This document shows positions 4,281 to 29,664 of a DNA stretch of 64,000 nt, in pieces. The stretch's first letter is position 1, and each line of letters starts with the position of its first letter. Location: the NCBI RefSeq assembly GCF_000147355.1, contig NC_014506.1:992001-1056000 (forward strand), given 5' to 3'. The notes beneath the pieces were generated by a model. It was not told where the DNA came from, searched no databases, and saw only the letters and a program-made list of their open reading frames with translations. The stretch is from Sulfurimonas autotrophica DSM 16294. GTDB lineage: Bacteria; Campylobacterota; Campylobacteria; Campylobacterales; Sulfurimonadaceae. A program made the position numbers and the translations under genes.

Positions 4281-6664
4281 ATGAGAAAAAATAAGATATT
4301 AGTTTCTTTGGTTGCATCAGTTGCATTTATGTCCATAACATCATCTTCTGTTTTAGCTTATGATAAGAACCCACCGTTCAAATTAGATAAGCTCAAGCAG
4401 TATACTGAAGTTGGGGCAGATGGAAAAAAATTAGAGGCTATGAGCCGAAAAATGATTACAATGTTTTTATTAATTATGAACTAGGCATGCATTGTGTTGG
4501 ATTTGAGATGAGTTACTGTTGTGTAATTCCTCCATACAACTCTATTCAGGCACAGGCTGTTGCAGCGGGCGAAAGCGGAAAATTACCTAAGCTATTAAGT
4601 CCTGATGATGATGTAAAACTTTATTATTATACTAGAGACAACTCTTATAGTGAAGGTAATAAAATGAAATACTGGTCTGTAGCAAAAGATGCAGACGGCG
4701 ATGGGCATTTTGACTCTCCGGGTGATAATGTTGCCAATTATGTTTGGACACACCTTTTTATATATAAAGATTTAGAAGGCACAAAACCTGCAGGTGCAAC
4801 AGATAAAGATCGCCTTCGTATAGGACGTCAAATTCCTGTTAACATTGACAGCGGACCTTCTGGAAAACCTCTCTCCGGTGGTTATTTGGAATATGCAGGA
4901 AAAAATGGTGGAAATATTGTCATGACAGATACACTCGTTCCCCCTGTAAAAGATGTTAAATTAGTACTTACTGCTTCTCACCTTTGGGATGCACTCGGCC
5001 TTCCTCTTACTGCTTTTAATGATACAACACGAAAAGGTACTATTCGTTCTGTAACAGAAAAAGATTTCCAACCCTTCCAGTATTCTACAGTTGAAATGCA
5101 TGACAGAACAGGAAAAGGGATGAAAAACTCTTCTGGTATGCCTGTTTCATATTTTGGTACAAACCCTGTAGATATACCAAACTGTTATGCTTGTCACTCA
5201 CGAAACGGTAAGGCAGCACAAATGGCTCGGGATGAAGGGATTAAATATTCTGACAAAGAGTATAAATACTGGAAAAGCTATCCCGATGAGAGTGAATATA
5301 TGGCAAGACTTGCGGAATCTTCTATAAATATTCTTTCATTACATGATAAACATCATGAGACAACATTTTTAAAAGACTATAGAGAGAATGCTTCGGGAAA
5401 TAGACTTGGCTCAACAGGACTTGTAAACTGTGCTGATTGTCATGGTGATAATGTATCAGGTAACTTGCAAGAACCTCGTCCTACTGCAACAGGGTACAAA
5501 GCTGTAAAAGCAATGCCTTTAAGTGAAGCAATTCACGGTTTTCACCTTGGAATGGTTCCTATGCCTGATGGCGGTGGAAGAAGTCAAGCATGTCAGTCAT
5601 GTCACCCGACACACTTTCAGAATCCGAATATGAATGATGACTCTAATCCATTTAGAGTAACAGACAGATACGGTGAAGGAAGATTTTCTAAAGGAGATAT
5701 TAGAAAATCAGGCGGCGGATGTTATGTACGTCGTGATGCGCACTCAAATCCAAATGCGAAACCACCGTTTTTCCTAAATGATTATGGAAAATGGCAATAT
5801 AAAAATGTTTCTATAAAAGATGAACATGGTAAACCTACGAAAGAGTTAAGAGGCTTATACTGTACAAACTGTCATACAAAAGCAGCACAGGCTTTTCAAA
5901 ATTATGATAATATTAAGCATGACAGTACACAGTCAGGTAAAACTCTGAGAAATAAAACACTCAAAGAGATGATTAAAGCAATATCACATGGTGATGCCAA
6001 AGCTTTTGCCGCGATTGCAGATCCTAAAACAACCGGCAATAATGAAGTTATGAAGTATTATACAGAGCACAAATCTGCAACATTGGTGAAAAATGTTGGT
6101 AAAGATGGCAAGTTAGACCTTAAACCTTGGAATCATCCAAAAGGCGGCGCTGTTCCATATGCTGCGGCATCTGGTGGTAATGACTGGTGGTTGGCAGCAT
6201 CTGAGCCGCATTGTGCGGACTGTCATGTTGCTCCGTTTGTAGAGAGTGAAACAGGTGGAAAATACTTTCCGATTGATTTGCCGAATAAATACTCTTTATA
6301 CAGATATTCAAAAGGACACGGAGACATCGCTTGTCAATCTTGTCATGAATCAACACATGGTCTGTACTCTACGAGATATGACGGAAAAGAGCGTTCTGTA
6401 GATGTTACAACTCACGAACAGGCACTTCAGTATTCTCCTGATGGTAAATATGCAGGACCTGTTACATGTTCAGCATGTCATACGGTCAATGATAAAGGTG
6501 TTCCTTTACAGCTTAAAGATACTAAGTATGCAAATGATTATTGGGCTTCTGTTACTTTGGCGCACTTTATGAGAAGTGGAGACCAAAAACTTTCAGTAGA
6601 TGAATTGGTGAAAAAATATCCATATTCTAAATCTACAAATATCGTCAAAAAAGGGTGGAAGTAG
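4281..6664 (+). pseudogene. Multihaem cytochrome c (seven CxxCH), frameshifted near the N-terminus
   Basis: A periplasmic multihaem cytochrome c read in two frames. The start ATG at 4281 follows AGGGGAG and opens a signal peptide (MRKNKILVSLVASVAF..., cleavage near VLA-YD). The frame is lost at the A5 run 4448-4452; adding one A joins it to the second frame as ...NDYNVFINYELGMHC..., giving about 794 residues. Seven canonical haem motifs are visible: CYACH, CADCH, CQSCH, CTNCH, CADCH, CQSCH and CSACH. Two further cysteine sites are unusual: SYCC near the start and GGGCYVRRDAH in the middle, where one Cys is followed six residues later by His. The substrate is unknown. A MORN protein and a ccsBA haem lyase follow directly. 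The break may be a sequencing error, in which case the gene is intact. Confidence 0.82.
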
Positions 6665-7430: not shown

Positions 7431-10400
7431 ATGAAAAAAATTCTCTCTTTAATTGGTTCAATGCATACTATGGCAATTTTAATGCTTATATTTGCATTTA
7501 CCATAGGGTACGCGACTATAGTTGAAAATGACTATGGAACGATGACTGCAAAAGCAGAAATTTATAATGCGAGATGGTTTGAAGTTTTACTTGGCTTGTT
7601 GGCACTTAATCTTTCATATAATATTTATAAATTCAAGATGTATAAGCTGAGTAAAGCTCCTCTTTTTATATTTCATGTGGCATTTTTAGTCATATTGTTT
7701 GGGGCGGCAGTAACCAGATACTTTGGTTATGAAGGTACTATGCATATTCGTGAAGGAGGCACTTCTTCGTCTATTCTAAGTGCAGATCCATATATGAATG
7801 TGCAGGTGAATGAGGGTAGTGATAAAAAGCAACTCTCTAAAATTTTATATCTTTCTAAAAGAGGCAATAATGATTTTGAAGCATCTTTCAAATTTAAAGA
7901 TAAAAAAGTTGATGTAAAACTTGTAGAGTATATTCCTAATGCTATAGAAACTTTGGTGGAAGATAAAAATGGCAAAGCTATAGCTAAACTCATGATTACA
8001 GGCGGAGGTAAAGGAAAACCTGTAGCTTTGGAAGAGGGCAAGTTTTATAATGCGGGAAATTTTATCTTGGATTTTAATTCAGGTGAAGAGTTTAATAAGC
8101 CTGTTATAGCTATGTATATAAAAGACGGCACGCTGTATATGAAACACAATATGAAACTTTCTTATTTAAAAATGACTGATCGTTCTAAAGGCGATTTAAA
8201 TGCAAATGAGAATGAAATATTCAACAAAAGAGTCTTGTACAGTACTGATTTAGGTGGTTTTGTGCTACGTAACTTTATGCTGCATGCACATAAAAAAGTT
8301 GTTTCAAACCCTAAATCTATATTGAGAGCTTCAGGTGTAGATGCCCTTAAGTTTTTGGTCCGTAGTAGTGATGCGCAAAAAGAAGTGTTGGTATATGCAC
8401 AAAAAGGTCTTCAAGGTATGCCGGCTAATGTAGATATAAACGGTTTACATGTAAGTATTGCTTACGGTTCAAAAGAGATAAAAATTCCGTTTAAAATTAA
8501 GCTTCGTGATTTTCAGTTAGACAGATATCCCGGTTCTATGAGTCCTGCATCGTATGCAAGTGAAGTTGAGCTTATTGATAAAGAGATGGGTATAGATATG
8601 AAATACAGAATATATATGAACCACATTTTAGAGCATAGACATTACAGATTTTTCCAGGCTTCTTATGATATGGATGAAAAAGGAACAGTATTGTCAGTAA
8701 ATCATGATCCGGGAACATTGCCGACTTATATAGGCTATTTTTTATTGGCACTTGGTATGTTTTGGGCACTTTTTTCAAAAAAACACAGATTTGCGAAGCT
8801 CTCGGCAAAAGCAAAAAAAGCAAGTGAATGTAAAATCGTTCCGGCATTGCTTATTGCAGGGTTAGCGTTTGCTGTTACACCGGGAAAGGCTGCCGAGCTT
8901 GATCCGGCGATTAAAACAATACTCTCTTTTGATAAAAATCATGCGCAAAAATTTGGACACTTGGTAGTGCAAGATACAAAAGGACGTATGAAGCCTATAG
9001 ACACGCTCTCTTTGGAAGTGTTGGCAAAAATACACAGAAGTGCTACATTAAAAGTCGGCAAAACAGAGTTAAGCTCAAATCAGGTTCTTCTTGGAATGAT
9101 GATACGTCCTGATATATATAGAGATATAAAACTCATTCAAACAAATGATGAAAAAATAAATGAAGCTATCGGTGTACGAAAAGATGCAAAATATGCTTCT
9201 TTTGCTCAATTCTTTCAAGACCCTGAAGGTATGAGAGGGTATAAAATTTTAAATCTTGTTGATGAAGCTTCAAGAAAGGCACCAAAAGACAGAAATAAAT
9301 TAGACAAAGCTGCTCTAAAAATTGATGAAAAAGTGAATGTTGTATATATGGTTTTTACAGGTTCACTCCTGAAAATTTGGCCTAAACCAAATGATTTAAA
9401 TAACAAATGGTATGCAACAATTGAAGCTTTAAAAACTTTTGATGCCGAGCAGGCTTTAAAAGTCAGAACGATAGCCATAGAGTATTTTACGGCTGTTGAT
9501 GCCGCTCTTTCAAGTGGAGACTGGAGTAAAGCTGATACAGGATTGAAAAAGATAGATGAATATCAAAAGTTTTACGGTTCAGCAGTTTATCCGAGTGAAA
9601 ATAAAATAAAAGCAGAAATTTTTTACAATCACTCAAATATTTTTGAAATTCTTTGGCCATTATATTTTATAATGGGTTTTGTACTGTTGATTTTGAGTTT
9701 TGTAAAAATTTTAAAGCCTAAATTTCAAATGGAAAAAATCACAAAGCTTTCTTTAGGACTTTTAGCCATTTTCTTTATTGTACATACGCTTGGGCTTACT
9801 CTTCGATGGTATATTTCAGGGCATGCACCATGGTCAAATGGTTTTGAGTCAATGACATATATCGCGTGGGCAACAGTTTTGGCAGGATTTATCTTCTCTA
9901 AACAGTCACCGATAACGCTGGCATCCACCTCAATTTTGGCAGGTTTGATTCTGTTTGTAGCACATTTAAGCTGGATGAATCCACAGATTACAAATCTTGT
10001 ACCTGTACTTAATTCTTACTGGCTCAGTATACATGTATCGATGATTACGGCAAGTTACGGCTTTTTAGGGCTTGGCGCTCTGCTTGGATTTATTACTCTG
10101 ATTCTGTTTATAGTGAAAAATGATAAAAATGACAAACAGATATCACTTTCAATTAAAGAGTTGAATGCAATCAATGAAATGAGTTTGATGATAGGGCTCG
10201 TTCTATTGACTGTTGGAAATTTTTTAGGCGGTGTCTGGGCAAATGAATCATGGGGTAGATACTGGGGATGGGATCCAAAAGAGACTTGGGCATTAGTGAC
10301 TATTTTGGTTTATGCCGTTGTTGTACATGTAAGATTTATTAAATCTATCTATAATGATTTTAATTACAGTGTTATTTCACTTTTAGCCTTTACCTCAGTT

Positions 10401-19974: not shown

Positions 19975-20316
19975 ATGAGTAAGGATAAGAACAAGATGAG
20001 AAATAGTAAATACACCAGAGAATTTAGAGATTCTAGTGTTCAATTGGTGATAAATTCAGACGAATCAACTGCAAAAATTGCCAAAGATTTAGATGTGAAC
20101 GAGAAGACTCTTTATAATTGGGTTAGGGAATATAAAAAAGCCAATAATATTCCTATATTTCCAAGGGGTTATTCTGCTTCTGAAGATGGAAAGAAGAACA
20201 TAAAAGAGACAGCAGAAGAAGAGAACAAACGCTTACGAGCAGAGAACAAATTACTCAAGCAAGAAAGAGACATTTTAAAAAAGGCAACAGCGTACTTTGC
20301 AAAAGAAGTTCTGTAA
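19975..20316 (+). CDS. IS3-family transposase OrfA
   Basis: A 113-residue protein with an N-terminal helix-turn-helix (YTREFRDSSVQLV...STAKIAKDLDVNEKTLYNWVREYKK) and a C-terminal leucine-zipper-like helix (EENKRLRAENKLLKQERDILKKA). It binds the element ends. The heptamer A-AAA-AAG at 20277-20283 sits in the zero frame (TTA AAA AAG). A minus-one slip there leads without a stop through VKYAWIQKNK into OrfB, giving the OrfAB transposase. Without slipping, OrfA ends at 20316. Confidence 0.93.
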   Translation: MSKDKNKMRNSKYTREFRDSSVQLVINSDESTAKIAKDLDVNEKTLYNWVREYKKANNIPIFPRGYSASEDGKKNIKETAEEENKRLRAENKLLKQERDILKKATAYFAKEVL

Positions 20317-20342
20317 AATACGCATGGATTCAAAAGAATAAA

Positions 20343-21194
20343 ATGAACTTCAATATTACAGTAATGTGCAAAGTTTTAAAAGTTGACAAATCAAGCTTTT
20401 ATCATTGGATAAAAGCGGGTTGTATTGTTAAAAAAGTTGATGAAAAGCTCAATGAACTCATAGAAATAATATTTGTTCAAGGAAGGCAGAACTACGGTAC
20501 AAGACGCATCAAAGAGAAACTGAAACAAAGATATGGATTTCTTGTTTCAAGACGCCGTATAGGCGATATTATGAAGGACTTGGGGCTTGTCGCAAAGACC
20601 AAAAAGCGATATAAAATCAATACAACAAATTCAAATCACAATCTACCAATTGCACCCAATCTCTTAGAGAGAGATTTTTATGCTTCTACTCCAGATGAGA
20701 AATATGTTGGAGATATAACTTATATTCCAACAAATGAAGGCTGGCTCTATTTAGCCACTGTCATAGATTTGTACTCAAGACGAATAGTCGGTTGGTCAAT
20801 GGATGATACCATGAAAGTTTCACTTGTAAATGATGCCCTAAATATGGCATTAATCAGCCGAAAACCGCCAAAAAGTTTAATTTGGCATACAGATAGAGGC
20901 AGCCAATATGCTTCTTATGCGCATAAAGATTTATTGCAAAAATATGGAATCGTTCAAAGCATGTCAAGAAAGGGTAATTGTTGGGATAACGCAGTAGCAG
21001 AGAGCTTTTTTCATACCTTGAAAACTGAACTTGTTTACCATGAGATTTATGAAACAAAATCTCAAGCTAATCAGAGTATTTTTGAATGGATTGAAGTTTA
21101 TTACAATAGACAAAGGATGCATAGTTCAAATAATAATTTGTCACCTGTCGAGTTTGAAGAAAAAATGATGTTACAGGTTGAAACAGCAGCTTAG
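20343..21194 (+). CDS. IS3-family transposase OrfB (DDE catalytic part)
   Basis: The catalytic half of the IS3 transposase, 283 residues: a helix-turn-helix-21 type segment (NYGTRRIKEKLKQRYG), then the rve integrase core with all three acidic residues in VGDITYI, HTDRGSQYAS and WDNAVAESFFHTLKTE. It is made mainly as the OrfAB fusion through the minus-one shift in orfA, since the frame stays open upstream of this ATG. It is intact, so this element may still be mobile. Confidence 0.95.
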   Translation: MNFNITVMCKVLKVDKSSFYHWIKAGCIVKKVDEKLNELIEIIFVQGRQNYGTRRIKEKLKQRYGFLVSRRRIGDIMKDLGLVAKTKKRYKINTTNSNHNLPIAPNLLERDFYASTPDEKYVGDITYIPTNEGWLYLATVIDLYSRRIVGWSMDDTMKVSLVNDALNMALISRKPPKSLIWHTDRGSQYASYAHKDLLQKYGIVQSMSRKGNCWDNAVAESFFHTLKTELVYHEIYETKSQANQSIFEWIEVYYNRQRMHSSNNNLSPVEFEEKMMLQVETAA

Positions 21195-22995: not shown

Positions 22996-24024
22996 ATGAA
23001 ACCGATAGAGAGAGTTTTACAGGCTATAGAAGATATTAAAAAAGGCAAGATGGTAATTATGATTGATGATGAAGACAGAGAAAATGAGGGTGACTTGGTT
23101 TATGCTGCTGCTTTTTCAACTCCTGCACATGTAAACTTTATGGCAACGCATGCACGAGGGCTTATATGCGTTGCTCTGTCTAAATCTATTGCAGACAGAC
23201 TCAATTTAAATCCTATGGTGAGTTCAAATACATCTTCATATGAGACTGCTTTTACTGTTTCTGTGGATGCAAAAGATGCTTTGACAGGTATTTCTGCAAA
23301 AGAGCGTGATGATACTATAAAAATACTGGCTAATCCTATTTCAAAGCCGGATGAGCTGGTAAAACCGGGACATATTTTTCCTTTGATAGCAAAAGAAGGC
23401 GGTACGCTTGTGAGAACGGGGCATACAGAAGGTTCCGTTGATTTATGCCGTTTGGCAGGGCTTAACGAGGCCGGTGTGATTTGTGAGATTATTAAAGATA
23501 ACGGTGAGATGGCTCGTCGGGATGATTTAGATATTTTTGCAAAAAAGCATGATCTGCATACGGTGTTTATTTCCGATATTGTTGAATACAGACTTGCCAA
23601 TGAAAGACTCGTAAAAGAGATAGATGTGCAAGAGATAGAGTTTTTCGGTGTAAAAGTACAGCGACATACATTCCAAGACCATGACGGCATTCATCATACG
23701 GCTATACTTTTTTACAATGCAGGTGAGGTTGCCAATGTAAGAGTTCATAACGTTATACCTGATTGTGAACTGCTTTTAAATCAAGACAAATATAATAATC
23801 TTATTAACTCTATAGAATATCTCAAGCAAAACAGTGGTTTATTGGTTTTTATCAACAAAACGAACCATCAGGACAATGCAGCTATGAAAGAATTCGGCAT
23901 CGGTGCGCAGATTATCAAATCTTTCGGTGTTTCAAAGATGAACCTGATTACTTCTATGAAAAAAACTGATTTTGTCGGGCTGGGTGGATTCGGGCTGGAA
24001 GTAAATGAAATTATAGATATTTAA
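22996..24024 (+). CDS. ribBA: RibBA: DHBP synthase with degenerate GTP cyclohydrolase II domain
   Basis: Residues 1-200 are 3,4-dihydroxy-2-butanone-4-phosphate synthase, which makes the four-carbon unit of riboflavin from ribulose 5-phosphate. DDEDRENEGDL, ATHARGLICVAL and RTGHTEGSVDL carry its substrate and metal residues. Residues 210-342 have the outline of GTP cyclohydrolase II (VRVHN start), but the three zinc cysteines expected after this point are missing and the GDLRCDC region is replaced by IPDCELLLNQDKYNN. That half is therefore unlikely to be catalytic; a similar state is known from Helicobacter relatives. A separate ribA should exist elsewhere. The stop overlaps the apbE start. 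Confidence 0.92.
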   Translation: MKPIERVLQAIEDIKKGKMVIMIDDEDRENEGDLVYAAAFSTPAHVNFMATHARGLICVALSKSIADRLNLNPMVSSNTSSYETAFTVSVDAKDALTGISAKERDDTIKILANPISKPDELVKPGHIFPLIAKEGGTLVRTGHTEGSVDLCRLAGLNEAGVICEIIKDNGEMARRDDLDIFAKKHDLHTVFISDIVEYRLANERLVKEIDVQEIEFFGVKVQRHTFQDHDGIHHTAILFYNAGEVANVRVHNVIPDCELLLNQDKYNNLINSIEYLKQNSGLLVFINKTNHQDNAAMKEFGIGAQIIKSFGVSKMNLITSMKKTDFVGLGGFGLEVNEIIDI

Positions 24025-24956
24025 TGCATAAATTGTTACTCATTGCATGTTTGTTTCTTACATGTAATGCAGATATACAGATGACACAGCGTTCAAAAGT
24101 AATGATGGGGACCTTTGTGTCTGTTTCTGTTGAGAGGGGGCATAAAGAGCTTATAAAACAATCCTTTGAAATAATAAAAGGAGTTGAGAGCTCTCTCTCT
24201 TCTTACAAAAAAACATCTCCTATTGCTAAACTCAATAAAAATAAAGAAGCAGACTTAGATGCCTATAGCTATGAATCATTAAAGCTCTCTTTGCAATACT
24301 ATAACGAGACAGGCGGTTATTTTGATATTGCCGTAGGAAAGATTACAAAAGATTTATACCATTTTGGCGAAAAAGAAAGAGTAGCTTCTTCTAAAGAGCT
24401 GCAAAAAAGTTCTACATCTATCGGCGGGCTTGTATTTGATAAATCAACGGCATATATTAATAATACTATAAAAATAGACCTTGGAGGTATGGGCAAGGGG
24501 TTTGGCGTTGATAAAGTCAGTGCATTTTTAGTGAAAAACAGCGTTAAAAAAGCCGTCATAGCTTTAAGCGGTGATATTCGATGTATAGGTACATGTAAGA
24601 TTGCTGTAAATAATCCTTTGGATGCAAATCAGCCTTTGGCCCTTTTTACAATGAACAACAGCGGTGTGAGTACGAGCGGAAATTATAACAGATATATTAA
24701 GAGTCCAAAATACAATCATCTTATAAATCCTAAAACAAAACAATCAGAACAAAATTTTTTCTCTGTCACACTTGTTTCAAACCTGCCATCGGCTACACTT
24801 GATGCATATGCAACGGCTGTGAGTGTTATGCCTGTAAAAAAAGCATATGCTTTTTTAAACTCTCAACCTTTGGCATATATAATTTTACAAGCAGATAAAA
24901 AACTTATAGTCAGTCAAAATATTATCCACTATATAAGTGATTTAAAATTGAAATGA
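24024..24956 (+). CDS. apbE: ApbE: FAD:protein FMN transferase
   Basis: A periplasmic enzyme of 310 residues that attaches FMN from FAD to Thr/Ser of exported flavoproteins. It has a signal peptide (MHKLLLIACLFLTCNA), then the family features: MMGTFVSV, FDIAVG, the flavin-binding IDLGGMGKGFGVDKV, ALSGDIRCIG, and the metal-site region SATLDAYATAV. The ATG overlaps the ribBA stop by one base, so flavin supply and flavin transfer are coupled. Its 3' end overlaps the convergent cytochrome gene by 15 bases. A likely substrate with a flavinylation motif is encoded at 26980-27513. Confidence 0.93.
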   Translation: MHKLLLIACLFLTCNADIQMTQRSKVMMGTFVSVSVERGHKELIKQSFEIIKGVESSLSSYKKTSPIAKLNKNKEADLDAYSYESLKLSLQYYNETGGYFDIAVGKITKDLYHFGEKERVASSKELQKSSTSIGGLVFDKSTAYINNTIKIDLGGMGKGFGVDKVSAFLVKNSVKKAVIALSGDIRCIGTCKIAVNNPLDANQPLALFTMNNSGVSTSGNYNRYIKSPKYNHLINPKTKQSEQNFFSVTLVSNLPSATLDAYATAVSVMPVKKAYAFLNSQPLAYIILQADKKLIVSQNIIHYISDLKLK

Positions 24957-26045
24957 TTGCGTTTTTAACACTCTTATTTTGCTGAGCTCTTTATCATTTT
25001 GAAGATGCAGTTCTTTTGCCGCTTTGTTGGAAATAAGTCGAAAGCCGAGTGTAATGATGACTTTGTCTTCTTTTTGGAGTTTTGTATTATATTTGACATT
25101 CTTTTTTGCGTAAATGAGTGTATCTTTTAAAACTTTTTTTGCTTCAAACGGCATACTTTGGGTGCCGTTTTTCCCAAAAATACGTGTGAAAATGTATGGT
25201 TTTAAAGAAATAGTTTTATCCCCTCTTCTGATTTGAATATCAAGAACACCTTCTCTGTATGCCTGTCCAAAGAGAGCATGATTAGCTTGGTTTATAATTT
25301 TTACATCAAAGCCATTGCTGTTTTTTTCTACTGTTAAATCTATATATTTGCCAAGAGTTTCACTAAAGATATGTACACCTGCTATACCGTGATAAGCGTG
25401 CGTTTTACTGTCTCTAAGTGTTGTTTTACTGCCCATGATTTGCGGCATGTGACACGATATGCATGTATGCTTGTCTTTTTTGTCTATGTAGGCATCTAGC
25501 ATTATAATATCAAAATCATTACTATTATTTACATGTGAATGACATCCCATACAGACATTGCCGTTATAGTAGTTTTCATTGTTGTATTCTATTTGATGAT
25601 AAGGAGAATTTTTAGAATGTTTTACGAGTCCAAAGAAAGAGCTTGTTGTCTCGTACTTTACTTTTGATTCATTTTTTTTATCTGCTTGTGCTGTGTAAAA
25701 GTCCTTTTTCTCGCCGCTAAGTATGTTTTTGTTGGCTTTATCACCTTCTTGAACATCTTTTATGGTGTGACAGTAAATACATGAAATAGGAGCTTCTTTT
25801 TCTTCACGTGGAGTCTTTGCACTTGGTGAGTGGCAGCTCTTACAATTGTTTTTTTCTTTATTTTTATGCTCTTTTTCAAAAAGAGCTTTATATGTTTTAT
25901 CGTTAGCAAGTGATGACTTTCTGTGAATAGAGTTGTAGTATTCTTTGTAAATAAGAGGATGGCATTTTTGACAAACTTTATTGTCATTTGCAAAAGAGAC
26001 GTTACATGTAAGTATAATCAGTGAGAGTAATATAAGTGTTTTCAT
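24942..26045 (-). CDS. Periplasmic pentahaem cytochrome c
   Basis: A 367-residue protein with a signal peptide (MKTLILLSLIILTCNVSFA) and five haem motifs in the first 210 residues: CQKCH, CKSCH, CIYCH, CMGCH and CISCH. The pattern of the haem part (CxxCHPxIYKEYYNSIHRKS...) is like the cytochrome c554/c552 family. The last 150 residues have no haem site and look like a beta-rich domain. It is the last gene of the porin operon on the minus strand, 18 bases after the membrane protein gene. It probably moves electrons across the periplasm between the membrane proteins and the FMN protein or an outside partner; the direction is unknown. Confidence 0.9.
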   Translation of the reverse strand: MKTLILLSLIILTCNVSFANDNKVCQKCHPLIYKEYYNSIHRKSSLANDKTYKALFEKEHKNKEKNNCKSCHSPSAKTPREEKEAPISCIYCHTIKDVQEGDKANKNILSGEKKDFYTAQADKKNESKVKYETTSSFFGLVKHSKNSPYHQIEYNNENYYNGNVCMGCHSHVNNSNDFDIIMLDAYIDKKDKHTCISCHMPQIMGSKTTLRDSKTHAYHGIAGVHIFSETLGKYIDLTVEKNSNGFDVKIINQANHALFGQAYREGVLDIQIRRGDKTISLKPYIFTRIFGKNGTQSMPFEAKKVLKDTLIYAKKNVKYNTKLQKEDKVIITLGFRLISNKAAKELHLQNDKELSKIRVLKTQSFQF

Positions 26046-26063
26046 AAGAAATATTGTAGCGGA

Positions 26064-26513
26064 TTAATCATAAATTATACTTTTAAAAAGAATAAATATT
26101 CCATATAAAATAATAAAATTAAAGAAAAAATAGGTAATTAATTTGATAAAAATAAAAAAATCAAGCCCAAAAATAATCAAAAAAGGAGAAAAAAGCTCCA
26201 AAAAGGCGGTTATAAATGCGCTGTAAATTATTATTTGCATCTCTTTAGTATCTCTTTTGCCCGTAAAAATTAAAAAATGCAGCACAACCATGACAAAAAG
26301 CCCAAAAGCAAAAATATGAGGCACTATTATTTTTAAAAGACCGTTAAAAGTTTTTGCTGTAGAAAAAGCAGCTTCACTGCCAAGATAATACTGCCGGATG
26401 CTCTCATATGAAAAGCCTATTTTATCGGCAAAAATAAGCGCTGCACTGACAAGCAGTAAAACAGTAAAAAGTAAAAACCAGCCTATTGCATATTTGTAGG
26501 CTTTACTCGGCAA
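26064..26513 (-). CDS. Four-helix membrane protein of the flavin-cytochrome operon
   Basis: A 149-residue integral membrane protein with four hydrophobic helices (about residues 10-30, 62-85, 95-118 and 122-146). The second helix has two His residues 13 apart (VPHIFAFGLFVMVVLHF), a spacing close to that of haem-b ligands in some quinone-reactive cytochromes; this is only a hint. It starts with TTG at 26513, overlapping the stop of the preceding membrane gene by 11 bases. I do not recognise the family. A role as quinone-reactive or anchor subunit for the cytochrome is inference from position. Confidence 0.75.
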   Translation of the reverse strand: MPSKAYKYAIGWFLLFTVLLLVSAALIFADKIGFSYESIRQYYLGSEAAFSTAKTFNGLLKIIVPHIFAFGLFVMVVLHFLIFTGKRDTKEMQIIIYSAFITAFLELFSPFLIIFGLDFFIFIKLITYFFFNFIILYGIFILFKSIIYD

Positions 26514-26979
26514 AATTAAGTTCCCATAAGGATTTTAGTGCCATGTAAAATGCAATAACATGCCAGGAAAAAAAACATACTAAGTATATACCTATAAATT
26601 CTGCAGAGTAAAAATAAGCAGCTGTTAATGCAATAGGGCAGAGTATGCCAAATACCATTAAAAGATTCATTATAAGTATTGTATTTTGTTTTTTGTACAA
26701 GAGGCGTATAAAAACAGCACTCAAGGTCAGAAGCAGCATCATCAAAAAGAAAATCTGAATATGTATAAATTCCAAAAACACAGACTTGTTCATGGGGTCT
26801 AAAAATTCATCTGCATTGCCAAAAAGTGTTGTACTGACTGTATGAATACTTAAGCCGAGTGTATGATTTTTTACAAATATATCAAAGATAAGATAAAGCA
26901 TTATAAAAATTAAAAGCCCGTTGAGCAGAGGCTTCATACCTTTGTCTTGTTTGACATTTTTTATAAGAGTAAAACGCAA
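26503..26979 (-). CDS. Second four-helix membrane protein of the flavin-cytochrome operon
   Basis: A 158-residue protein with four predicted helices (about 17-36, 68-92, 100-120 and 126-148). Histidines are embedded in helix 2 (FLEFIHIQIFF) and helix 4 (FFSWHVIAFY), so intramembrane haem is possible. The start is uncertain: TTG at 26979 directly follows the FMN-protein stop, and an ATG at 26937 (MKPLLNG) is an alternative with AAAGG very close to it. It overlaps the next gene by 11 bases. Family unknown to me; its partners suggest a membrane electron-transfer subunit. Confidence 0.72.
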   Translation of the reverse strand: MRFTLIKNVKQDKGMKPLLNGLLIFIMLYLIFDIFVKNHTLGLSIHTVSTTLFGNADEFLDPMNKSVFLEFIHIQIFFLMMLLLTLSAVFIRLLYKKQNTILIMNLLMVFGILCPIALTAAYFYSAEFIGIYLVCFFSWHVIAFYMALKSLWELNFAE

Positions 26980-27513
26980 TTATTTTTCTTGTAAAAGTTC
27001 ATTGTAGATTGCAAAGGCAATGCGTGAGCCGTCGGTTATACTTCTGGCACTAAGAGTCGCTCCCGTAATGGTAGGAATATCACGTGAGAGCTTGAGCATT
27101 TTATTTGTCGGTATATTTTGAAACTGAGAAGTCCATGTTTTAGAAGGAATGTATTCGTGAGGCTCGTTAAAAGCGATGACTTCTATACCTTTTAATACAC
27201 CATCTTTTGTAATAAGGTACATAACTACCGCATTTTTAGAACGAACCTTTTTATTGATTAAAATACCGTACCCTAAAATTTTTCCACGTTTCTCGGCTAT
27301 ATAGATACGATAAATTTTTGTTTGCAGTTTTACTTTTGCACTGGATTGTATCTTTTTAAACATAGCAGAAGAGAGCAGAATATTTTTTTTACGTATTGTC
27401 GCTGTTTGAGAGTAATTTTCTTTCATTGCATCTATCGGGGAGAGTAAAACTTCCGCCGATAGAGAATTTGTAAGAGAGAAAATGAGTAAAGACAGGAGAA
27501 GAATATGCTTCAT
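26980..27513 (-). CDS. Secreted FMN-binding domain protein, probable ApbE substrate
   Basis: A 177-residue exported protein: signal peptide MKHILLLSLLIFSLTNSLSA, then one FMN_bind domain (residues 60-175). The segment GILINKKVRSKNAVVMYLIT leads to the motif PTITGATLSARSIT, where the Thr of TGAT is the expected site for covalent FMN, as in NqrC and RnfG. Those relatives belong to multi-subunit ion pumps, none of which is seen here. It stands second in the operon after the porin, and apbE is encoded convergently 2 kb away. It is a probable periplasmic flavin electron carrier. Confidence 0.88.
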   Translation of the reverse strand: MKHILLLSLLIFSLTNSLSAEVLLSPIDAMKENYSQTATIRKKNILLSSAMFKKIQSSAKVKLQTKIYRIYIAEKRGKILGYGILINKKVRSKNAVVMYLITKDGVLKGIEVIAFNEPHEYIPSKTWTSQFQNIPTNKMLKLSRDIPTITGATLSARSITDGSRIAFAIYNELLQEK

Positions 27514-27557
27514 TTTTTATCTCGCTTTTATAAATTTTTTATGATTATATCAAAACT

Positions 27558-28781
27558 CTAGAAAATAAAACCAAGAGAGACACTAAATGTATCAGAATCT
27601 ATTTTTGTATTTGCTAAATCATTATTTGCCATTGCATAATCCATTTTAAGAACAACCTGCTCATGTGGAAAGAAGTTCACACCGACTGTTGTCGTATCAA
27701 CAGAGTCAAAACCTGTTCCGTTTGCGAGTGTTTCTTGAGGATTTATCGTCTCATACTGAATAAACACCGGTAATTTTTTCTCAATTGATGTCAGGCTAAG
27801 TACATCAAAACTGGCATTAATATAACCGCCGCTCATATCTTTAACCTGTGTACCTGTTGTCTCAGAACGACTTGTTTGCGTATATGTACCATATACTCTA
27901 GCACCGTTATATTCATAGTTTAGGTGAACATCGTACATTGTTATTTTACTATCAGCATAAAGAGATGCACCGACGAGTAAACCGTTTATACCGGTATAAT
28001 CAATACGCCCGACACCTGCAAAACCGGGATTTGCAACTTCAAAAGAACCCCCGCGACCTGACCGTAACCATTTCGCACCTGCTGTATCATCGGGCTGTAA
28101 CGCACTGACACCTGCTAGTTTATATTCAATATCATCCGTAATATTACCATAGAGCATGGCACCGCTTTCATTCCAGGTAGTAGGAATAAGATACTTTGAT
28201 GTCTGCGGGCGCTGTACTGTTGTAAAGAGTGTCGGTTCATGTCTTTGATTGATTAATCCTACAGGCATTAAAAAGTTACCCAGACGTACATTAAAGTTTT
28301 TGTTTATCAAAAAATCAAGATACATAAATTCAACAAGAACTTCATCACCGCCGCCGTCAGCAGTAACACCGCCGCCTTCATACTCTATTTCTGTATTTAA
28401 AATAATATTATCACTGAATTTGTATCCTAAATACATAATGAGTCTTTTTACCTGTGTCTCAGAAGAATCAGCACTGTTATCATCTGAATCAGTATTCGCA
28501 TAATACATTTCACCGTATCCGCCGATACTTAAAGGTGATTTTGAATAATAGATTTTAGAAGCTGCAGCACCTAACCCGCTGTGAGATTGTTTTGTATCAA
28601 CAGTTGTATAACTGAAACCTGTTTTTAAATCACTTGTCTCGTCTATAAGAGACTGTGTTGTCTCTTTAAGCTGCTTTATCTCTTCTTTGAGCATTTGTAT
28701 ATCTGCTTTATCATCCCCGAAAGAGGCACTACTTACTAATAACATACTCGCTAATGCTAGTGAGATTTTTGATTTATTCAT
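27558..28781 (-). CDS. Outer-membrane porin with N-terminal coiled coil
   Basis: A protein of 407 residues with signal peptide MNKSKISLALASMLLVSSASFG and a short coiled coil (DIQMLKEEIKQLKETTQSL) that can bind peptidoglycan or trimerise. A beta-barrel follows with alternating strands and the terminal aromatic signature SVSLGFIF. It resembles phosphate-selective (OprO/OprP) porins such as those of other Campylobacterota; the transported solute cannot be told. I chose 28781 because AAAAGGATT lies before it; the frame extends upstream to 28868 without a signal. It heads the operon with the flavin and cytochrome genes. Confidence 0.88.
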   Translation of the reverse strand: MNKSKISLALASMLLVSSASFGDDKADIQMLKEEIKQLKETTQSLIDETSDLKTGFSYTTVDTKQSHSGLGAAASKIYYSKSPLSIGGYGEMYYANTDSDDNSADSSETQVKRLIMYLGYKFSDNIILNTEIEYEGGGVTADGGGDEVLVEFMYLDFLINKNFNVRLGNFLMPVGLINQRHEPTLFTTVQRPQTSKYLIPTTWNESGAMLYGNITDDIEYKLAGVSALQPDDTAGAKWLRSGRGGSFEVANPGFAGVGRIDYTGINGLLVGASLYADSKITMYDVHLNYEYNGARVYGTYTQTSRSETTGTQVKDMSGGYINASFDVLSLTSIEKKLPVFIQYETINPQETLANGTGFDSVDTTTVGVNFFPHEQVVLKMDYAMANNDLANTKIDSDTFSVSLGFIF

Positions 28782-28874
28782 TGCTAATCCTTTTAATGTG
28801 ATTATGATATTTACTATCAAAATCTTTTTGAATGGAGAAAGTGTATAATATTTTTTTATAAATGTCAATAGTTA

Positions 28875-28889
28875 TGATAATTATTATTA
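28875..28889. promoter_or_regulatory. Near-consensus Fur box between divergent genes
   Basis: TGATAAT-T-ATTATTA differs from the 7-1-7 inverted repeat TGATAAT-N-ATTATCA at one base. On the minus strand it ends six bases before a perfect TTGACA (28863-28868) leading to the porin operon. On the plus strand it covers the -35 region of a TATAAT at 28911-28916 ahead of the gene at 28942. Iron control of one or both sides is possible. Confidence 0.5.
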
Positions 28890-28941: not shown

Positions 28942-29664
28942 ATGAGAGAAATATTTATAAGAGATGAAGACGGCAGTAAAGTATATATAGAAGTTGATTT
29001 AAATGCATATGCATATAGTAATAAGTATGGATGGTTATTGAGTGTATTTATAAAGTTTGATGCTTTAGATGAAAGTGTAGAGGGATTTGAAGAGTTTTTA
29101 GATGCAAAAGAGTCGTTAATCATCACACTGGAGCATGAAGAAAAGGCTAAATATGTCGGTTCACGCGTTGTAGATGGCTGGAGTGAACTCTATTTTTATG
29201 CGGCTGATTCAAAAGGCTTGGATTTTGTCGTAAAAAGTATTTTACAACCGGCAAATTATGTGTATGAAAGTAATGTGGTTCGTGATTCCAAATGGGATTT
29301 TCATTATCGCAATCTTGCTCCGACTGAATTAGAATTATGCCATATACAGAGTGAAAAGATAATCTTTTTACTTCAAGAAGAGGGTGATAATTTAGAAATT
29401 CCCAGAACAGTGGAACATTATGTTTCATTTACAACGCCGACACAAAAAAATAGATTTATAAATTCATTAGAACTTGAAGGTTTTAGCTTTAAAGATGAAA
29501 TCAGCAGTGATGAATTTGAGCATGGTGTAGCTCTTGTCAAAACTCATGCTGTTACATCAGAGGAAATACAAAAAGTTGTAAACGAGCTCTTTGAAGTAAT
29601 TAAAAAAGAGCAGGGATATTATGAAGGCTGGAGTACACTTTTAGCACAAGATGAGAATGTTTAA
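28942..29664 (+). CDS. DUF695 plus RraB-like domain protein
   Basis: A cytosolic protein of 240 residues without membrane segments. Residues 1-125 fit DUF695 (WxxELYFYAADSKGLDF, SKWDFHYRNLAPTELE). Residues 130-235 fit the RraB family (DNLEIPRTVEHYVSF...FINSLELEGF...YYEGWSTL), whose E. coli member inhibits RNase E. Campylobacterota generally lack RNase E, so the RraB-like part should have another target. The start follows GAGAG, and TATAAT at 28911 is the likely -10. It overlaps the next gene by 14 bases and opens the operon with the acyltransferase and dgkA. Assignment is from recognition of the pattern. Confidence 0.7.
   Translation: MREIFIRDEDGSKVYIEVDLNAYAYSNKYGWLLSVFIKFDALDESVEGFEEFLDAKESLIITLEHEEKAKYVGSRVVDGWSELYFYAADSKGLDFVVKSILQPANYVYESNVVRDSKWDFHYRNLAPTELELCHIQSEKIIFLLQEEGDNLEIPRTVEHYVSFTTPTQKNRFINSLELEGFSFKDEISSDEFEHGVALVKTHAVTSEEIQKVVNELFEVIKKEQGYYEGWSTLLAQDENV

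Follow-up and report, generated by a model that had tools for sequence, protein, structure and literature searches.

The 64,000-nucleotide stretch of the Sulfurimonas autotrophica DSM 16294 genome analysed here (NC_014506.1, positions 992,001 to 1,056,000; hereafter, the window) contains a conserved envelope electron-transfer system, in which flavinylated extracytosolic electron transfer is combined with a membrane component that has no name in the libraries searched. The core consists of the genes for a porin, a flavin mononucleotide (FMN)-binding protein (FMNb) and two four-helix membrane proteins (TM1 and TM2), along with an adjoining, convergent apbE gene. With moderate confidence, we take this unit to be a Fur-controlled, flavinylated assimilatory ferric reductase that is fed by a new, split cytochrome b-like pair and serves FeoB, an iron role that is supported by the regulation of the unit and by its neighbouring genes. 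The original prediction, made from the sequence of the locus, had proposed a general electron route with a small acceptor or metal as the substrate; it overlooked the Fur-type operator and the iron-related neighbours, which favour iron assimilation over a general or respiratory route.

Sequence comparison revealed the conserved unit, the ApbE/FMN protein pair, the Fur-type boxes, the paralogy of the two membrane proteins and their conserved histidines, all described below; we infer haem binding, a quinol donor, a ferric acceptor and the direction of electron flow in the following scheme. At low iron, Fur would leave its operator and the porin-FMNb-TM1-TM2 row would be transcribed, and ApbE would attach FMN to Thr153 of the periplasmic FMNb. 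TM1 and TM2 would form a heteromer with two stacked b-haems, the outer one held by H73 of TM1 and H66 of TM2 and the inner one by H140 of TM1 and H79 of TM2, and would draw electrons from the quinol pool of the membrane and hand them to FMNb. The latter would then reduce the ferric iron or small ferric complexes admitted by the porin, and FeoB would import the resulting Fe2+. A pentahaem cytochrome c would be a further periplasmic carrier, added in the subclade of the window.

The conserved unit and its ApbE

Homologues of TM1 were detected in 26 of 60 relatives by a single-sequence search, a few of them weak, and by a profile search in 40 of the 349 genomes of the order (11 of 86 genera), with seven family labels among the positive genomes (f1, f3, f4, f6, f7, f15 and f18). 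In a phylum-wide sample, 38 of 397 genomes encoded TM1, every one of them from the same order; no plasmid yielded a TM1 match, and a pattern-limited scan with FMNb, the one search to reach beyond the phylum, returned close relatives only. At the inspected loci, across seven families of this one Campylobacterota order, the unit consists of porin-FMNb-TM1-TM2 and the convergent, adjoining apbE; the porin comes first in most loci, and apbE flanks the unit on the opposite side in genus g26 and at locus L098. Because the flanks differ from family to family, this gene order is not mere inertia, and because the unit persists in genomes whose flanking genes are unrelated, the locus is more than a chance assemblage. 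Thus, the proposal that these genes form one system holds, with a core different from the one drawn originally.

The difference concerns ribBA and the pentahaem cytochrome, both of which the original prediction had counted as parts of the system. When the six-gene neighbourhood was followed over the inspected loci, porin, FMNb, TM1, TM2 and apbE were found to be kept across families, but ribBA was not: it adjoins the unit in most Sulfurimonas loci and in no inspected locus of the other families, and is a lineage-specific neighbour found only in the genus of the window. Only the window and six close relatives (L028, L035-L038 and L052) have the cytochrome in this row; it is absent from most loci and is an accessory, not a core component. 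Members of the same cytochrome family occur in many genomes at places unlinked to the unit, so the cytochrome looks recruited. The comparative neighbourhoods therefore rule out both genes as core parts. At L052 (single-contig genome G011), ribBA and TM1 are each split by frame breaks (5609-6633 and 9123-9595), due either to sequencing errors or to recent decay.

ApbE follows TM1 closely. The window genome encodes a single ApbE and a single FMN_bind protein, and across the 349 genomes of the order, all 40 with TM1 encode ApbE, compared with 30 of the 309 without it (Fisher p 9e-34, kinship uncorrected); as counted from the listed coordinates, apbE lies no more than about 3 kilobases from TM1 in 34 of the 40. 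These observations support the view of ApbE as dedicated to the TM1-bearing unit. The FMNb profile matches RnfG structures (E 5e-8), and G151, A152 and T153 are invariant in 18 of 18 homologues from several families; being RnfG-like with an invariant GAT, FMNb is expected to carry covalent FMN, with T153 as the predicted attachment site. Its N-terminus contains a signal-like stretch, apparently a signal peptide in place of a membrane anchor. Altogether, FMNb displays the features of ApbE-flavinylated FMN_bind proteins, namely, a PF04205 match above the cut-off, the GAT triplet in all 18 sequences, a stretch resembling an export signal and an adjoining apbE.

In the window genome, a single contig of 2,153,198 bases, ribBA and apbE on the plus strand face a minus-strand row of porin, FMNb, TM1, TM2 and the cytochrome (Table 1). 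All seven open reading frames (ORFs) are present, in the order and at the places originally predicted, as are the single base shared by ribBA and apbE, the five CxxCH motifs of the cytochrome and the TITGATLSAR motif of the FMN protein; apbE and the cytochrome gene have overlapping 3' ends on opposite strands. Matches in Pfam and NCBIfam were obtained for RibBA, ApbE, FMN_bind, Porin_O_P and multihaem cytochrome c. The longest ORF of the porin spans 27558-28868, and the likelier start is the ATG at 28781, which is preceded by AAAGGA. Shortly upstream of the locus (19975-21194), two successive ORFs resemble, by eye, the transposase pair of an IS3-type element (helix-turn-helix orfA and DDE orfB).

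Table 1. Genes and regulatory sites of the locus, in window coordinates
Feature	Position	Strand	Evidence
ribBA, riboflavin biosynthesis	22996..24024	+	NCBIfam PRK09314, E 5e-161
apbE, FAD:protein FMN transferase	24024..24956	+	PF02424, E 4e-56
Pentahaem c-type cytochrome	24942..26045	-	Five CxxCH in translation; Pfam Cytochrome_C7/C554
TM2, four-helix membrane protein	26064..26513	-	H66 and H79 on helix 2; AlphaFold2 predicted local distance difference test (pLDDT) 83
TM1, four-helix membrane protein	26503..26979	-	H73 on helix 2, H140 on helix 4; AlphaFold2 pLDDT 86
FMNb, predicted periplasmic FMN_bind protein	26980..27513	-	PF04205, E 3e-5
Porin, Porin_O_P-like, outer membrane, first gene of the operon	27558..28781	-	PF07396, E 1e-6
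Second Fur-type box TGATAGTAAATATCA (12/14)	28805..28819	-	Between promoter and start codon
Promoter-like TTGACA-17-TACACT	28840..28868	-	
Fur-type box TAATAATAATTATCA (13/14)	28875..28889	-	Just upstream of the -35 element

Fur-type operators, iron-related neighbours and the role of the unit

A Fur-type operator was defined as the 7-1-7 site TGATAATnATTATCA, with at least 12 of 14 positions matching within 250 bases upstream of an ORF. Such boxes precede 35 of 39 porin ORFs compared with 26 of 568 other ORFs and 2 of 38 apbE genes (Fisher p 9e-36), counts that are not phylogenetically independent given that the consensus was counted on related genomes. Several of the high-scoring other ORFs are divergent neighbours that use the same intergenic stretch as the porin. 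In the window, a divergent gene with DUF695 and RraB (28942-29664) lies on the box-bearing intergenic stretch; this gene is kept in many Sulfurimonas loci and may be iron-controlled too.

With at most one mismatch, the operator occurs in only three places in the window genome, namely, at the porin promoter, at the promoter of an operon for an exported protein, feoA and feoB, and within nosZ (L159, 2502-2516; genome position 1971501), so that the feoAB promoter has the only other near-perfect intergenic copy. Each of the two iron promoters carries two boxes; ribBA and the pentahaem cytochrome have no Fur-type box of their own. When two mismatches are allowed, the genome contains 39 matches per strand compared with 36 in the reversed control, so that single weak boxes mean little and the argument rests on the position of the boxes and on their conservation. 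A 7-1-7 operator at the promoter, common to the feo genes of the same genome, points to membership in the Fur regulon, and the unit is probably switched on when iron is short.

Two FeoB proteins are encoded in the window genome. The feoA-feoB pair with two Fur-type boxes (L158, 1776-5506; genome 503275-507005) follows the gene for a 433-amino acid exported protein without a Pfam match, which is possibly a feo-linked outer-membrane protein; it is porin-like, and we considered kinship with the porin of the window, but no relation was detectable. At other loci, the unit itself has iron-related neighbours. The cluster at L101 (2121-9434), a distant copy, consists of Fur, an HMA_2 protein, a weak DUF2202-like protein, an HMA_2 P-type ATPase, a FezC-like protein of 85 amino acids that carries a Fur-type box, and DUF4198, followed by FMNb-TM1-TM2, and resembles a ferrosome cluster. 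At L093, another distant copy, the unit is accompanied by two imelysins, DHOR, CCP_MauG (a MauG-like peroxidase) and a Fur-family regulator; at L088, apbE has a TonB receptor as its neighbour, and a Fur-type box lies between the unit and a divergent nosZ; genes for MntP and for cation efflux lie close to the unit at L097.

These observations bear on two other explanations of the locus. A respiratory or extracellular route, from quinol via TM1-TM2 to the FMN protein and the pentahaem cytochrome and then through the periplasm to a respiratory acceptor (a ferric or sulfur compound, for instance), would account for the presence of the cytochrome in the row of the window and its six relatives, and flavinylated proteins and cytochromes appear to be interchangeable in respiratory systems (PMC8238504). 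We nevertheless consider such a route unlikely: most loci lack the cytochrome, whose relatives are located elsewhere in other genomes, the unit includes no outer-membrane cytochrome conduit, and both the Fur-type boxes and the iron-related neighbours suit assimilation. It also appears improbable that, under iron limitation, the flavin protein acts like NosR or MsrQ and, without reducing iron, feeds another periplasmic enzyme that is encoded elsewhere, for instance nitrous oxide reductase, methionine sulfoxide reductase or a peroxidase. The arrangement of nosZ at L088, the di-haem peroxidase-like genes within the L093 cluster and the presence in the window genome of nosZ and of no other FMN_bind protein would all be compatible with such a supply role, but nosZ is distant from the locus in the window genome and was seen in none of the other inspected neighbourhoods, and a haem-bearing membrane pair would not save iron.

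The TM1-TM2 membrane pair

The membrane pair is what is new at this locus, and its family is unnamed in the curated libraries searched. Neither protein has a match in Pfam or NCBIfam; among TM1, TM2 and their homologues, no match to PF12801, PF01794, PF03929 or PF02683, the families expected of NapH-, MsrQ-, PepSY- or DsbD-like partners, was found in Pfam-A, and no transporter family was matched by TM1 or TM2. Homologues of TM2 produced weak, isolated matches to cytochrome b561, and a profile search of the PDB with TM2 gave nothing meaningful. Thus, the profile check did not assign the two proteins to any known unrelated family, as the idea of a single system had required. The two are paralogous to each other: they align by hhalign at E 8e-8, and a search with the TM1 profile recovers the TM2 of this genome at 6e-11. 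When the two were folded separately with AlphaFold2, each was predicted to be a four-helix bundle, as originally proposed, with pLDDT of 86 for TM1 and 83 for TM2. The two genes overlap in the window; at L097 (8594-9499), L098 (8393-9307) and L100 (8123-9028), TM2 instead starts right after the TM1 stop codon, in the same frame.

Residue conservation was assessed in 18 sequences spanning the families. The sole invariant residues of TM2 are H66 and H79 (18 of 18), and in TM1, H73 is kept in all 18 sequences and H140 in 16; these four histidines are the most conserved membrane residues of the pair, which also contains a conserved acidic periplasmic GNxxxF..P loop. By the positive-inside rule, TM1 H73 and TM2 H66 would sit at a depth of four to five residues from the outer face of the membrane, and TM1 H140 and TM2 H79 at seven to nine from the inner face. 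Because these depths pair up, the simplest reading would be one haem at each of the two levels between the subunits, and the four histidines could hold two b-haems between TM1 and TM2, in agreement with the earlier suggestion of a plausible haem pair; alternatively, TM2 may form a homodimer, as in FezC. The pattern of cytochrome b, in which helices B and D of one chain each carry two histidines, is present in neither protein, as TM2 has the helix-2 pair only and TM1 has one histidine each on helices 2 and 4. We give an even chance to the specific proposal that TM1-TM2 represents a new class of membrane electron carrier for flavinylated proteins, in which gene duplication produced a heteromeric, split di-haem b cytochrome that supplies a Fur-controlled ferric reductase of Campylobacterota with electrons from the membrane.

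Profile comparison of the pair with cytochrome b and DUF4405 gave no significant similarity; TM2 aligned with DUF4405 by hhalign at probability 3.7 (E 0.011), and the genome has no PF14358 match at 0.001. In favour of a cytochrome b-like pair, the VIA comparison places cytochrome b6f/bc1 chains among the better matches of the TM2 model over all four helices, with Z of about 6-7. The best VIA matches of TM1 (alpha-catenin, TRPV3 and mPGES1) look like shared helix bundles only.

That TM1-TM2 is instead a metal permease, with the conserved histidines binding the Fe2+ that FMNb produces and the pair moving it inward, is doubtful: Fur-type control, the iron-related neighbours and the acidic loop would fit, and haem in the pair is a prediction only, but two histidines 13 residues apart on one helix, at depths matching those of the two in the partner, are haem b-like, no transporter family matches, FeoB is already present and the FMN protein would be left with no recognised electron donor in the unit.

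Besides the relatedness of the genomes used for the box counts and the closeness of the genome-wide counts to the control, several findings weigh against a Fur-controlled ferric reductase fed by TM1-TM2. The H140 residue of TM1 is missing in two distant copies, L055 and L101, and Foldseek produced no significant match for either TM1 or TM2. For helical bundles, a Z below 13, such as that of the TM2 model with cytochrome b6f/bc1 chains, may reflect a common arrangement only. The core unit includes no iron permease, and the protein sequences themselves never name iron as the substrate.

Relation to known systems

The flavinylation literature describes membrane partners of the NapH-, MsrQ-, PepSY-, DsbD- and Nqr/Rnf-like types as well as links to iron transporters (PMC8238504), to which a later survey adds DUF4405/FezC cytochromes (PMC11334425). 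The TM1-TM2 pair is not among the partners described in the portions of the two surveys consulted and, in keeping with the original view that the locus resembles no well-known flavinylated system, no Nqr/Rnf, NapH, MsrQ, PepSY, DsbD or DUF4405 component was recognised in the unit. The word Campylobacter appears twice in the main text of PMC8238504 and is absent from PMC11334425, and we found no published account of the locus in the open-licence literature. The claim that the locus has no named counterpart thus stands for the membrane pair, but the link between flavinylation and iron assimilation has already been published (PMC8238504), which makes the role of the unit less unprecedented than had been implied.

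A review calls the mechanism of riboflavin-linked ferric reduction unknown in Campylobacter jejuni and not fully elucidated in Helicobacter pylori, where low iron induces ribBA, with more extracellular iron reduction (PMC6041382). For the phylum to which these two bacteria belong, the locus supplies a specific ferric-reductase candidate that can be put to the test. In many marine genomes, it gives a common role to an FMN protein that lacks annotation, to an orphan ApbE and to two membrane proteins listed as hypothetical, as a five-gene kit that is common to several sulfur-oxidising and related bacteria and most likely makes insoluble iron available for uptake.

Four known systems invite comparison. 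FMNb has the same FMN-binding domain and [S/T]GAT attachment motif as RnfG and NqrC, but carries a signal peptide rather than a membrane anchor, and the unit contains no Rnf or Nqr partner subunits. In the P19/FTR1 uptake system with its FMN-binding or thioredoxin-like partner, known in Campylobacter, an envelope redox protein is likewise proposed for iron assimilation, whereas the unit has other membrane proteins and neither P19 nor FTR1. The MsrQ-like and PepSY-like iron-linked clusters also combine ApbE and a flavinylated protein outside the cytosol with a haem protein in the membrane (haem being predicted in our case) and with links to iron, and the PepSY-like clusters are under Fur control in two species (PMC8238504); in contrast, the core unit lacks PF01794, PepSY, DUF2271 and VIT1 and includes a porin in the operon. 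The DUF4405/FezC cytochromes are similarly apbE-adjoining membrane proteins with paired conserved histidines and an iron link (PMC11334425): helix 2 of TM2 displays an H-x(12-13)-H-like pattern similar to theirs, and the L101 copy of the unit adjoins the ferrosome-like cluster with the FezC-like protein. By profile, TM1 and TM2 match neither PF14358 nor cytochrome b, and unlike DUF4405/FezC, which is one six-helix protein or a homodimer, they divide the histidines between two paralogous four-helix subunits.

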